Shown piece by piece: positions 15,138 to 47,882 of a DNA stretch of 47,882 bases (its first letter is position 1; every line of letters begins with the position of its first letter). A program made the position numbers and the translations under genes. The notes beneath the pieces were generated by a model, which worked only from the letters and a program-made list of their open reading frames with translations, had not been told where the DNA came from and did not search any database. Where the stretch lies: contig NZ_JABANC010000010.1 in the NCBI RefSeq assembly GCF_012931685.1, forward strand, positions 1 through 47,882, in the 5' to 3' direction. Source of the DNA: Hanstruepera ponticola (lineage in GTDB: Bacteria > Bacteroidota > Bacteroidia > Flavobacteriales > Flavobacteriaceae).

Positions 15138-15896
15138 ATGATTACAGTTTGTCTTTTAGGCGCAGGAAACGTTGCAACACATCTTTATATGGCTTTTACA
15201 GATGCTGAAGGTATAACCGTAAAGCAATGGTTCAACAGAGATATAAAAAAAATAAGTAGCTACAAAAATAAGGTTGAAATCACCAATGATATACAAACTT
15301 TAGAAAAAGCCGATATTTATGTACTAGCTGTAAGTGACGATGCCATTTCAGATCTTTCACAAAGGCTTCCTTTTGAGAACAGACTTACGGTACACACATC
15401 AGGTAGTGTGAATATTTACGATTTAGACAAAAAAAACAGGCGAGGTGTTTTTTATCCATTACAAACATTCTCAAAGGATGTAGCTGTCAATTTCTCTGAA
15501 ATTCCAGTTTGCATTGAAGCACTTGACAAAAAGGATTTAAAAAACCTTAAAGCACTAGCTAATGCTATTGGAAGCAATTGGTATAAAATCAACACAGAAC
15601 AACGTCAAACACTGCATGTGTCTGCTGTTTTTGTAAATAATTTCACCAATCAATTATACCGTATTGCCCATGAAATAAGTGATGCCAAAAATATCAATTT
15701 TGATATTCTTAAACCGTTGATTTTAGAAACTGCAAAAAAAGTTCAAGAGGTCTCACCTTACATGGCGCAAACAGGGCCTGCAAAGCGCAATGATAAAAAG
15801 ACCATAAAAAAACACTTAAAACAACTAGAAAGTGAGGAACATAAGACCATTTATGAACTGCTTACACAATCAATAAAGAAAACACATGGAAGATAA
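15138..15896 (+). CDS. Rossmann-like and DUF2520 domain protein
   Basis: 252 residues from the ATG at 15138; an upstream TTG at 15096 would add 14 residues but the Rossmann strand MITVCLLGAGNVATHL starts at the ATG. GAGNVATH is the dinucleotide-binding loop; the C-terminal half (LNE-like QTLHVSAVFVNNFTNQLY) matches DUF2520, which resembles the dimerisation domain of ketopantoate or prephenate dehydrogenase-type oxidoreductases. Substrate unknown. It overlaps the next gene by 11 bp and heads a four-gene operon ending with maf. Confidence 0.85.
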   Translation: MITVCLLGAGNVATHLYMAFTDAEGITVKQWFNRDIKKISSYKNKVEITNDIQTLEKADIYVLAVSDDAISDLSQRLPFENRLTVHTSGSVNIYDLDKKNRRGVFYPLQTFSKDVAVNFSEIPVCIEALDKKDLKNLKALANAIGSNWYKINTEQRQTLHVSAVFVNNFTNQLYRIAHEISDAKNINFDILKPLILETAKKVQEVSPYMAQTGPAKRNDKKTIKKHLKQLESEEHKTIYELLTQSIKKTHGR

Positions 15897-16422: not shown

Positions 16423-16538
16423 TACTAACCACTAAAAACTAAACACAAACCACTAACAACTAAACACTAAACACCAAACACTAAACACTAAACACCAAAC
16501 ACTAAACACTAAACACTAAACACTAATTACTAAACACC
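16423..16538 (+). repeat. Heptanucleotide tandem repeat (ACTAAAC/ACCAAAC)
   Basis: Nine exact or one-base-variant 7-bp units run from 16459 to 16521 in the order actaaac, actaaac, accaaac, repeated with a 21-bp super-period, with degenerate units on both sides. The tract fills the gap between kdsC and the prenyltransferase. A short relic of the same family is at 22960-22988. Confidence 0.9.
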
Positions 16539-16542
16539 AAAA

Positions 16543-44830: not shown

Positions 44831-45217
44831 TTATGCAGAACCTAATACTTGTTTTAAATCTGCAATTTGATTTTCCCATAGCATTTTAGACTCATCAACC
44901 TCATCTTCTTCGGCAAAATCAATGACAATAATTGAGACATCTTTTGTGATTTCATCAACCTGAATACGAATTTCAAAGTAATAAGGATCCTCTTCATCAG
45001 CAAGCCACTTAAACTTAATGCGCTCACCACTTTTTTTGCTCACCAATTTAGCTTGTTCTTCAGTGCCATCCCAGATGAATTTAAACAGCTCGCCACGTGA
45101 GTTCACATTCTCGGCAAACCACTCTGATAATCCAGAAGGGGTAGATATGTATTGATATAATAATTGCGGTGAAGCGTGTATAGGAAACTCCATTTCAAAT
45201 TTCACTTTTTCGTCCAT
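44831..45217 (-). CDS. START-like domain protein
   Basis: 128 residues from the ATG at 45215-45217; another ATG at 45221-45223 is possible. KVKFEMEFPIHASPQLLYQ is the opening strand and helix, then STPSGLSEWFAE and FIWDGTEEQAKLV, the hallmark of small flavobacterial START-like (SRPBCC) proteins of unknown role. It ends at the terminator at 44801 and has no partner gene on its strand. Confidence 0.82.
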   Translation of the reverse strand: MDEKVKFEMEFPIHASPQLLYQYISTPSGLSEWFAENVNSRGELFKFIWDGTEEQAKLVSKKSGERIKFKWLADEEDPYYFEIRIQVDEITKDVSIIVIDFAEEDEVDESKMLWENQIADLKQVLGSA

Positions 45218-45304
45218 AGTCATAAATATAATTTGTTCGCTCAATATATACATTAATTGATAAGTTTTAAAACTATTTTTTATAAATATTTTATTGTGAC
45301 AATA

Positions 45305-45335
45305 TTTGTACTGAATAAATTTGTTGTTATATTTG
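45305..45335 (+). promoter_or_regulatory. Strong promoter of tRNA-Met
   Basis: TTTG (45305-45308), 19 nt, TATATTTG (45328-45335), an ideal Bacteroidota promoter. The ~50-nt leader before the tRNA contains AACGG/CCGTT (45347-45362) and TTCCTAT/ATAGGAA (45372-45389) hairpins, probably trimmed during processing. Confidence 0.8.
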
Positions 45336-45392
45336 CAGCCTTAAAAACGGTATGCGCCGTTAATTATGAGATTCCTATTTTCATAGGAAAAT

Positions 45393-45466
45393 GGCGAGAT
45401 AGCTCAGTTGGTTAGAGCGTCGGATTCATAACCCGGAGGTCCCGAGTTCAAATCTCGGTCTCGCTA
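45393..45466 (+). tRNA. tRNA-Met (CAT), probably elongator
   Basis: GGCGAGA pairs with TCTCGCT (first pair G-T), D arm with GTTGGTTAGAGC, anticodon loop TTCATAA (CAT), T arm CCGAG/CTCGG, discriminator A, CCA not encoded. It does not look like the initiator (no three G-C pairs in the anticodon stem); a tRNA-Ile2 with CAT read as lysidine cannot be excluded. An integrase follows 54 bp downstream, so the 3' end is the likely attachment site of an element. Confidence 0.92.
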
Positions 45467-45490
45467 CAAAGCGTAATTCAGCGTAAACAG

Positions 45491-45520
45491 ACGGTTTAGT
45501 TCACTCTAAACCGTTTTTTT
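45491..45520 (+). terminator. Terminator between tRNA-Met and the integrase
   Basis: ACGGTTTAG (45491-45499) pairs with CTAAACCGT (45505-45513) over TTCACT, followed by seven T (45514-45520). The integrase ATG is the very next base. Confidence 0.85.
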
Positions 45521-46939
45521 ATGTTTACCTTAACTGAATTTCTTACATTTGAACACGAAAAGGAGCCCCAACCTGAACACAAATTGGCACACAAAAAACA
45601 ATTTTCTGCCCCAAAGATCTATACCGGTGATAATGACCTAAAACGCCGTTGGTATGTCTATTTTTCATTCAGAAATCCATCCACTGGTAAGATGGAAAGA
45701 CAGAAGAATATTTATGGTATTGCCAATAAAATGAAAACAAAGACCGATCGTTATACCATCCTTAATTTTTATAAAAAGACATTACACCGTTTATTAAGAG
45801 AAGGCTACAATCCCTACGAAAATAATTTAGAACGGTTTTTGGGAGGCCAAACAATTTCTCCGCCAAAAGAACCCAAGGTTGAAGTTGTTCCAGCTATTAC
45901 CTATCCGAAAACAACCATTAAACCCCTACCCTTTCTTAAAAAGGAAAAAGAGGCTGAAACCATATCTCAACCAGTACAACAGGTCTCTATAACTGAACCT
46001 AAAACCGAAAAGGTAGAAGAAGAAGAAAGAATGTCTTTGAGGGAAGCATTTGATTTTGCGCTTAAAATGAAAGAGAAATTGGTTAAACCACGTACCATTC
46101 AAGATTACAGGAACCGATCGAAAAATTTTATTAAATGGTTGAAAGAAGAGCATCCAAATGTTAAGCATCCCGATCAAATAACCCGAAAAATGTGCATGGG
46201 ATATCTAAACCAACATCTTATTAAAAATACACCGCGTACACGAAATAACAGCCGTGTGGATTTAAGCAGTATGATGCAGGTATTGGAGGACAATGAAATT
46301 ATCCCGGTTAATGTCATGCGAAAAACACCGGTTGTAAAGTCCAAGCCTGAAAGGCACAAGCGGTATGATTCTCAAACATTGGATGCTATTTTCAGTTATC
46401 TTGAAGAACAAGACCCCATACTCCTATTGTACATTAAATTTATCTCCTTTAATTTTATGAGACCTATCGAAGTTAATAGGCTTCGGGTCAAGGATTTGAA
46501 TTTAAAAACGAAGACCTTGACTTTTCAGGCAAAAAACAGTCCGCTCAAGACTAAAATTATTCCTGATTTGGTATTGGAAGCCCTTCCTGATTTATCAAAA
46601 TTACCTGGCGACAATCCCTTAATAACAAACAAAGGCATTGGGTTGCCATGGAATACTACAGTCGATAACCGAAGAGATTATTTTAGTAAACGTTTTAAAC
46701 GTGTGGTAAAAGATAAATTTAATTTGGGAGCTGATTTTGGTCTTTATAGCTTCAGACATACTTTTATAACAAAATTATATAGAAAATTACTTGAGAACAG
46801 CTCACCTTTTGAAGCAAAAAGTGTCCTAATGACTATTACAGGTCATACATCCATGCAAGCCTTGGAAAAGTATTTGCGTGATATTGATGCTTTTTTACCA
46901 AGTGATTATTCCGATTTAATACGAATGGATGGAGAATAG
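45521..46939 (+). CDS. Tyrosine recombinase/integrase of an integrated element
   Basis: 472 residues. N-terminal ~110 residues look like an arm-binding domain (RRWYVYFSFRNPSTGKMERQ); a 60-residue K/E/P-rich linker (about 112-170) follows, then a SAM-like core-binding domain (about 171-270, RTIQDYRNRSKNFIKWL) and the catalytic domain. Catalytic residues: R314 (FMRPIEV), R412 (GLYSFRHTF), H442 (ITGHTS) and nucleophile Y451 (LEKYLRD); the first His of the usual H-x-x-R is Y409. It should integrate and excise DNA at the tRNA-Met 3' end. Its ATG directly follows the terminator, so it has no leader of its own. It overlaps the next gene by 11 bp. Confidence 0.94.
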   Translation: MFTLTEFLTFEHEKEPQPEHKLAHKKQFSAPKIYTGDNDLKRRWYVYFSFRNPSTGKMERQKNIYGIANKMKTKTDRYTILNFYKKTLHRLLREGYNPYENNLERFLGGQTISPPKEPKVEVVPAITYPKTTIKPLPFLKKEKEAETISQPVQQVSITEPKTEKVEEEERMSLREAFDFALKMKEKLVKPRTIQDYRNRSKNFIKWLKEEHPNVKHPDQITRKMCMGYLNQHLIKNTPRTRNNSRVDLSSMMQVLEDNEIIPVNVMRKTPVVKSKPERHKRYDSQTLDAIFSYLEEQDPILLLYIKFISFNFMRPIEVNRLRVKDLNLKTKTLTFQAKNSPLKTKIIPDLVLEALPDLSKLPGDNPLITNKGIGLPWNTTVDNRRDYFSKRFKRVVKDKFNLGADFGLYSFRHTFITKLYRKLLENSSPFEAKSVLMTITGHTSMQALEKYLRDIDAFLPSDYSDLIRMDGE

Positions 46940-47633
46940 TAAACACGTTTTAAATAAGATCATTTCTAATCTATTTAGGAACTATATTTTCTATTTTCCT
47001 AAACAATTCTATCCTAATATAGAACCAACGTTTTTAAGTGACATTATTAGGCCGGATATGGTCAATACTATTTATTATTTCGATTTCAACAAAGAATTAC
47101 ATAAAAATCCTTCTGTAATACATGGTCTCGATATTTTTAATAAAGGAAATCAACTGGATAACAATACCAATGATCTTATTACTCTAAAACAGAATCTGAC
47201 ACTTGAAGAATTTTATCACATCTTTGAAAAATATGGACAGTATGTTGGAACCCATTGCATAATGACTCAATGGATGTATGCAAACATTAAAATTGACATG
47301 CCATTGACAACTTCCAAAGTAGAAAGTATGTTTCAATTTCAAGCGAAAGCTTTTGACGAGCATGCAGATAAACTAGAAAGTTATTTTGGAGAGGAAACAA
47401 TCACATCTGAGGTAGATGATAATCAGGTTCTGGAAATCGTATCAGAAACGTTAGAGGAACTTCCAGCAATCGAAATAAAAAAAGAGGTTGAAATACCTAC
47501 TAAACCACAGAAAAAGGAAGCACCTTTAAAGGCTAAACAAAAAGAACCTCTAATGACTGATGAAAAAGCCAGAAAATATATTTTAGAAACTGTTTTTGGG
47601 ATAGACCCAGAATTTTTAGATGCAGAATTCTAA
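46929..47633 (+). CDS. Unrecognised protein co-translated with the integrase
   Basis: 234 residues; ATG at 46929 overlaps the integrase end by 11 bp. The first ~150 residues form a mixed globular region (NLFRNYIFYFPKQFYPNIEP, LTLEEFYHIFEKYGQYVGTH). Residues about 150-205 are a flexible acidic then K/P-rich linker (EIKKEVEIPTKPQKKEAPLK) similar in character to the integrase linker, and the end is a short helical motif (MTDEKARKYILETVFGIDPE). No family recognised; an excisionase, partner of the recombinase or array-binding factor are options. The 22-bp array begins 64 bp after its stop. Confidence 0.75.
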   Translation: MENSKHVLNKIISNLFRNYIFYFPKQFYPNIEPTFLSDIIRPDMVNTIYYFDFNKELHKNPSVIHGLDIFNKGNQLDNNTNDLITLKQNLTLEEFYHIFEKYGQYVGTHCIMTQWMYANIKIDMPLTTSKVESMFQFQAKAFDEHADKLESYFGEETITSEVDDNQVLEIVSETLEELPAIEIKKEVEIPTKPQKKEAPLKAKQKEPLMTDEKARKYILETVFGIDPEFLDAEF

Positions 47634-47696
47634 TATTTTTTTTAAAATCCTAAAGTTAGGGTTTCGCTTTTCCTCTATTGATTAAAATACTTAATT

Positions 47697-47882
47697 TTGA
47701 CTACAATGGTGGTCAATTTGACTACAAACGGGGTCAACAGCAATGGTGGTTATTGCATTTTGCAATGGTGGTTATTGCATTTTGCAATGGTGGTTATTGC
47801 ATTTTGCAATGGTGGTTATTGCATTTTGCAATGGTGGTTATTGCATTTTGCAATGGTGGTTATTGCATTTTGCAATGGTGGT
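47697..47882 (+). repeat. Tandem array of 22-bp self-complementary units, running off the window
   Basis: Seven units at exact 22-bp spacing start at 47741, 47763, 47785, 47807, 47829, 47851 and 47873 (last one cut by the window edge). Each holds GCAAT-GGTGGTT-ATTGC followed by ATTTT, and the junction between units can alternatively pair ATTGCA-TTT-TGCAAT. Two divergent units precede them (47697-47716 and 47718-47737) with arms TTGAC/GTCAA and 10-nt loops. There are no unique spacers. The 47634-47696 stretch before it has no gene. Confidence 0.95.

Follow-up and report, generated by a model that had tools for sequence, protein, structure and literature searches.

What is a tandem array of short, self-complementary units doing immediately downstream of an integrase gene? 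The question is posed by the right edge of the window, by which we mean the whole 47,882-nucleotide stretch of Hanstruepera ponticola DNA analysed here. An earlier note, made from the letters alone, had seen there an exact 22-bp array of seven palindromic units and attributed it to selection on pairing or dyad symmetry. The exact period is confirmed (TRF, 6.5 copies, 100% matches), with six full palindromes and a seventh unit that is cut. The array does run off the window, as the note had it: the contig (C1) ends inside it, and contig C2 opens with 5.5 further identical copies, followed by a third dyad; the ends of C1 and C2 may overlap, so the 6.5 and 5.5 copies may not be simply additive. 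Immediately upstream, TRF reports a distinct pair of elements with a 21-bp period at 47696-47737. These are better described as dyads with 8-bp arms and a 4-bp centre, with one mismatch in dyad 1 and two in dyad 2 (Table 1), and they are a separate element from the 22-bp unit rather than variants of it. Dyad 1 folds at -4.0 kcal/mol, a value equalled by 0 of 200 shuffles; the 22-bp unit, in which GCAAT and ATTGC can pair, reaches -3.3 kcal/mol in DNA folding (z -2.25), equalled by 7 of 200. A CRISPR-like array was considered and rejected, as the identical copies carry no spacers and Rfam matches nothing except the tRNA, the only hit at gathering scores over 44900-47882, where no other known structured RNA was found. 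Cassettes, another feature that the earlier note suggested looking for, were likewise not seen within the assembled copies. An intrinsic terminator was set aside, its stems being weak in DNA folding.

Table 1 Positions of the integration target, attachment sites, genes and repeat elements of the island (window coordinates unless a contig or locus is named; L009 is contig C2)
Feature	Position	Strand	Basis or remark
tRNA-Met (CAT), integration target of the island	45393..45467	+	ARAGORN and Rfam
attL, 45 bp spanning the tRNA-Met 3' end	45425..45469	+	45/45 repeat, equal to attR
Tyrosine recombinase, 472 aa	45521..46939	+	Pfam and PHROG
Companion protein, 234 aa, mostly alpha-helical	46929..47633	+	Overlaps integrase gene
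Dyad 1, TTGACTAC-4-GTGGTCAA	47697..47716	.	Reads TTGACTACAATGGTGGTCAA
Dyad 2, 21 bp from dyad 1	47718..47737	.	Reads TTGACTACAAACGGGGTCAA
Iteron array, GCAATGGTGGTTATTGCATTTT x 6.5 up to contig end	47740..47882	+	TRF; period 22
Dyad 3	C2:138-155		After the 5.5 C2 copies
5'-truncated Schlafen group 3 helicase gene	L009:311-733		~190 bp past the array
Druantia-like cargo	L009:798-11905		PADLOC
attR	C2:22149-22193		45/45 identical to attL

The array sits in the left-end module (integrase, companion) of a mobile island that is integrated at tRNA-Met in this marine-type flavobacterium and bears genes for anti-phage defence. The island measures ~24.6 kb plus the array gap between C1 and C2, and in a congener (G300) both of its flanks join at tRNA-Met, which marks the unoccupied site. 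Its Druantia-like cargo includes a DruE-type helicase (PADLOC DruE2, E 0), a C5 methylase whose best match is a general type II methyltransferase model, with DruM models matching less well, a PD-(D/E)XK protein with a weaker DruK match and another protein with a weaker DruL4 match; farther along lie genes of unknown type together with TerB- and TPR-like genes. An integrase beside tRNA-Met, an att repeat at the tRNA 3' end, an unoccupied site in a congener and defence cargo are all shared with other tRNA-integrated islands that use a tyrosine recombinase. By contrast, the core module with a companion of no recognised family, and a dyad-iteron site that recurs between cargo modules, set this island apart: the island type is ordinary, whereas the site and the companion are not. 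Other short repeats also occur in the region, including an 11-bp repeat of ACCCGAAGGAC type (C2:22765-22813, 5 copies), ~570 bp outside attR, and ~17 copies of a 7-bp tandem repeat, ACTAAAC, at 16424-16541 of the window.

The earlier note's picture of a compact module with a recombinase and an overlapping companion holds well beyond this locus. Among the best 80 of 348 integrase relatives, the companion adjoins the integrase in 78, and tRNA-Met lies within 350 bp upstream in 60, with no other tRNA found in those 350 bp at any of the 80 loci. The recombinase itself matches Pfam Phage_integrase at E 8.7e-6 (below the cut-off) and a PHROG integrase at E 2.3e-30, and its presumably catalytic residues R314, R412, H442 and Y451 are invariant in 17 aligned sequences. 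With the window's own genome counted, 29 of the 299 sampled from the family carry the companion. It has no convincing match in Pfam, PADLOC, PHROGs, PDB (sequence and fold) or BFVD, and none in the plasmid and phage collections searched; no Pfam family is shared across 68 members of its family, and its profile finds nothing in the viral stretches L185-L206. Its structure model is confident (mean pLDDT 84.7) and matches no solved or viral fold. The next gene, at the 78 loci with a companion, encodes a zinc-finger protein in 47, a ribbon-helix-helix protein in 11 (9 classed by script and 2, L117 and L156, by eye) and neither in 20, the group that includes the window locus. Many loci with a zinc-finger third gene carry a long palindrome of about GCGTCAAACAAACGTTTGTTTGACGC just 5' of that gene (L042:3640-3683, island orientation), which may be its operator. 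Here and below, loci on the minus strand (L041-L045, L049, L051, L054-L059, L098, L230, L231, L239) are given reverse-complemented, in island orientation.

Could the iterons be arm-type sites of the integrase? Candidate arm repeats are found at the start of the integrase gene and also ahead of attR. The window recombinase gene carries GAACACG/GAACACAA-type repeats within its 5' end (12-bp repeats, 45551-45594); repeats of this type also lie at L047:1711-1753 and 15485-15555, with one copy at C2:22092, and in L047 those of the integrase start reappear just before attR. The counterpart in L058 is GCATACG, and the L056 integrase start encodes the same AYES repeat as L058, yet L056 has a GGTTAC dyad. 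Because the candidate arm repeats differ from the iterons, and because L056 retains this dyad, we judged it unlikely that the iterons are arm-type sites; the GAACACG-type repeats may instead be arm-type sites that the integrase encodes in its own reading frame.

Comparing the same locus in related genomes, as the earlier note had suggested, separates what is kept from what is not. The integrases at an orthologous locus in G301 (L105; 79.6% DNA identity over the module) and at a locus of Bizionia saleffrena (L147) are 84% and 51% identical to that of the window. G301 carries the dyads TTGGTTAC-4-GTACCCAA and TTGGTTAC-4-GACCCCAA, followed by CAAGGGTG at 22-bp spacing, with unrelated linkers and with one copy altered in its last base to CAAGGGTA; an imperfect hairpin remains in its first unit only. 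Bizionia has GGTTAC-type dyads 21 bp apart and then a GCAACGGTGGA array, whose 11-bp unit lacks the GCAAT/ATTGC arms. The window, G301 and L147 sites align without gaps from dyad 1 through the first iteron, and in both relatives GCAAnGGTG is kept at 22- or 11-bp spacing behind two dyads 21 bp apart. Judged from these alignments, the conserved feature is the iteron core CAAnGGTG with its helical spacing, and not the GCAAT/ATTGC hairpin. A hairpin in RNA or DNA is accordingly rejected as a conserved feature, its arms being lost in G301 and in Bizionia, and the earlier note's selection on pairing within the 22-bp unit is left unsupported. The perfect identity of the window copies probably reflects recent slippage over this conserved pattern. 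Beyond the site, the cargoes of G000 and G301 share no blastn match longer than 31 bp as far as the right end.

The dyads behave differently from the 22-bp unit. Between loci their arms change together (TTGAC/GTCAA versus TTGGT/ACCAA type), and symmetry is largely retained through these changes. The note's statement that the arms had changed in step is thus true between the dyads of different loci, although the note had reached it by comparing two different elements; its claim of symmetry in the upstream dyads fared better. Across 31 dyads, pair 4/17 is A-T in 20, G-C in 10 and unpaired in 1, and pair 5/16 is C-G in 19, T-A in 8 and unpaired in 4. The share of paired cells and the covariation score exceed all 500 shuffles, while two of five measures fall within them (330 of 500 shuffles as high for pairs changed on both sides, 478 of 500 for pair types); as the dyads were partly picked for symmetry, the shuffles do not amount to independent proof. 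This selection does not affect the comparison by position of the window, G301 and L147 sites. The covariation set leaves out seven of 38 dyads, most for a shifted register: L145 16133, L166 19857, L163 793, L167 6604, L047 15326, L053 3675 and L119 15544.

Searches across genomes place these patterns on the island side of the module. Of 299 family genomes, 2 contain three CAAnGGTG copies at 22 bp, namely that of the window and G296 (at the Bizionia locus L147), in both cases just 3' of a companion gene, whereas the reversed pattern has 0 matches in the same 299; chance is therefore excluded as the source of the array pattern. Allowing at most one mismatch, the dyad is found in 10 places in the 299 genomes; 8 of these lie downstream of a companion gene at a distance of no more than 10 kb, and the other two, inspected by eye, stand alone without iterons. 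In the 78 named loci (from the best 80 of 348 integrase relatives), the island side has 27 phased 7-mer clusters, spread over 15 loci, in 111 kb of noncoding DNA; the chromosome side has 3, each in a different locus, in 109 kb. The 27 include several pieces of a single region (six in L145), and two of the 3 stem from the same duplicated contig end. Clusters with both dyad and iterons number 12 on the island side and 2 on the chromosome side, both of the latter being that duplicated end. L163 and L164 are identical and were counted once. Neighbouring copies of phased motifs are spaced at 11-13, 20-22, 30-33 or 43-44 bp in 45 of 54 cases, and a Rayleigh test on 26 spacings entered by hand from the phased-cluster output gives R 0.70 for 10.5 bp, one of five periods tried. 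CAACnGTTC at 11 bp occurs in 1 of 299 genomes (G262), near type I restriction genes, and the absence of integrase and companion from the 19.9 kb read around it weakens a strict linkage of such sites to the module.

Dyad-plus-iteron sites with other iteron sequences recur within islands, often between gene modules. Two genomes of the same genus, G028 and G255, carry a 95%-identical HipA module, differently positioned in the two islands, that is bounded on both sides by site copies in direct orientation. These sites have three CGAGGGTA copies at 22 bp (with more variants on one side) and two dyads 32 bp apart, and a further site copy starts ~250 bp before attR in both genomes. Two direct site copies likewise enclose an AAA-ATPase module at L246. 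One site is 91-93% identical between G040 and L166 and has unrelated flanks on both sides, homology beginning at the dyad and stopping past the last iteron. Homology breaks at the site edges, and no crossover inside a site was caught; such breaks also fit mobile sites or sites carried along by homologous recombination. None of the 25 sites in a hand-made list falls inside an ORF of at least 80 aa. Neighbouring genes encode McrBC, type I restriction, HipA, SRAP and Y-family polymerase proteins, as well as carbon-nitrogen hydrolase, secreted FG-GAP, CAAX protease-like, peptidase M41-like and beta-lactamase-like proteins, and several without a family.

We tentatively propose that the array contributes the iteron half of a composite site acting in cis. 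Putatively, proteins would dock there for the recombination or mobilisation of the island and its modules, and the site would mark the island's left end and its module junctions. A binding-site array was among the roles suggested in the earlier note, and is also our best reading. The composite site would comprise two ~20-bp dyads, spaced 21 bp from each other, and after them CAAnGGTG iterons that repeat every 22 bp, or every 11 bp in a relative. Because these elements recur near whole helical turns and combine dyads with iterons, we infer ordered protein binding: a sequence-specific protein could bind along a single face of the helix and assemble a nucleoprotein complex. The site would form part of a left-end module of integrase, companion, site and optional regulator gene in a Flavobacteriaceae family of tRNA-Met islands, several of which carry defence modules. 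As the site lies beside integrase and companion and recurs at module borders, such a complex could serve recombination or mobilisation at the left end and at the junctions where the island acquires, loses or exchanges cargo. Several results count against this docking-site reading: site sequences differ widely among islands; a phased cluster lies within 700 bp after the companion in 8 of 78 loci, most relatives having no array there; genome-wide, the dyad is no commoner than its reversed control (10 versus 12 places in 299 genomes); and one G301 dyad folds no better than shuffles, 129 of 200 being as good.

In a bolder version of the docking-site reading, which we consider distinctly unlikely, the islands would be an integron-like platform for cassette exchange that uses double-stranded dyad-iteron sites: the integrase or the companion would assemble on the adjoining site and swap whole defence modules bounded by direct site copies, with iteron type setting compatibility between islands. 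Integron cassette arrays (attI/attC) are similar in that direct site copies separate modules in islands with a tyrosine recombinase. Integron attC sites end in GTTRRRY/RYYYAAC; the island sites lack such ends and bear iterons. By eye, no paired ends of this type were found at the window, G301, L147, L041/L047 or G040/L166 sites. Two sister islands do contain arrays of same-strand genes between direct repeats with GCCTAAC...CGTTAGG-type ends (L040:5146-9097 and L043:4960-9150, island orientation), features that we take to be attC-like and for which we call these arrays integron-like; they are separate from the dyad-iteron sites.

The main rival, which we regard as unlikely, is an iteron-type replication origin of the excised island, served by an initiator from the host, a helper phage or the companion. 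Iterons of 22 bp combined with dyads are a usual anatomy of such origins, and the site does contain both phased direct repeats and inverted repeats. Phage iterons of like geometry lie in replication-initiator genes. Five viral stretches (L188, L189, L190, L191 and L240) match 22-bp-spaced patterns, which fall inside initiator genes in L188 and L189 (PHROGs) and in L240 (from reading the translation); L190 resembles the L189 region on the opposite strand, and L191 carries an 11-bp CACCATTGCAT-type array (165-240) ~200 bp upstream of a terminase small subunit gene. The 11-bp CAACnGTTC pattern occurs in three viral stretches (L185-L187) and the dyad pattern in one (L192), whereas CGAGGGTA, CAATACCCATTG and AACGTGCGC arrays have 0 matches in viral contigs. 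Lambda-O-type phage origins share the 22-bp phased iterons, with TTGAC/GTCAA-like palindromes interleaved in L188, but lie within initiator genes, whereas the island array is intergenic. Also in keeping with an origin, a gene of the DUF5906 family, presumably linked to phage and plasmid primases, lies ~300 bp beyond the second site of L246. Among integrative islands, SGI1 offers a parallel: it has direct repeats near its integration genes, and its oriV, of iteron type, lies downstream of rep (PMC7433901). That same account gives SGI1 a recognised rep gene and 17-bp iterons (PMC7433901), whereas here no initiator is recognised, either among seven proteins of the island scanned with Pfam or in the companion, which matches no solved fold. 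Moreover, site copies flank modules and can repeat at their borders, unlike a single origin, and a single island, such as L145, can hold several iteron types that are unrelated.

An origin of transfer, or a mimic by which the island hitches on conjugative elements, with iteron types matching different helpers, seems to us improbable. Repeats one turn apart and inverted repeats are usual at oriT, and the product of the alternative third gene, of ribbon-helix-helix type, bears a weak resemblance to the mobilisation protein NikA (E 1.2e-5, below the cut-off). There is also a precedent: staphylococcal plasmids bear diverged oriT mimics of the pWBG749 family, which are likewise short sites on elements without transfer genes (PMC8136818). 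For the island site no link to a relaxase emerged, and Pfam finds none among the seven island proteins scanned. At least as improbable is a cluster of operators for the third gene or the cargo, or a decoy that titrates a regulator. Dyads do lie ~60-100 bp upstream of a zinc-finger gene in L106 and L108, the L163 site is 24 bp upstream of an SRAP gene, and arrays are commoner where the zinc-finger or ribbon-helix-helix third gene is missing (7/20 versus 1/58, Fisher p 2e-4, array loci entered by hand from the phased-cluster output). Yet the genes flanking the 25 listed sites are arranged +|+ at 12, +|- (convergent) at 7, -|- at 5 and open at one, with 0 between divergent genes; a divergent layout is impossible at 11 of the 25, which come after the companion gene, leaving 13 informative. 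Finally, a functionless short VNTR produced by slippage would account for the identity of every assembled copy, but we hold this to be very improbable: iteron core and spacing are kept across genera while linkers diverge, as in G301, where both the 22-bp spacing and the 8-mer persist, with the last base changed in one copy, and the array pattern occurs only at two companion loci among the 299 family genomes.

More broadly, it is a largely open question how genomic islands gather and reshuffle their defence modules. The titles and abstract openings that we searched, with most subscription journals outside reach, yielded no description of this island family or its site. The companion, a conserved protein with no recognised fold at 78 of the best 80 loci among 348 integrase relatives, is an immediate candidate for a binding test. 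A site that is enriched in one island family and that recurs at module borders would give a handle on the shuffling of defence modules.
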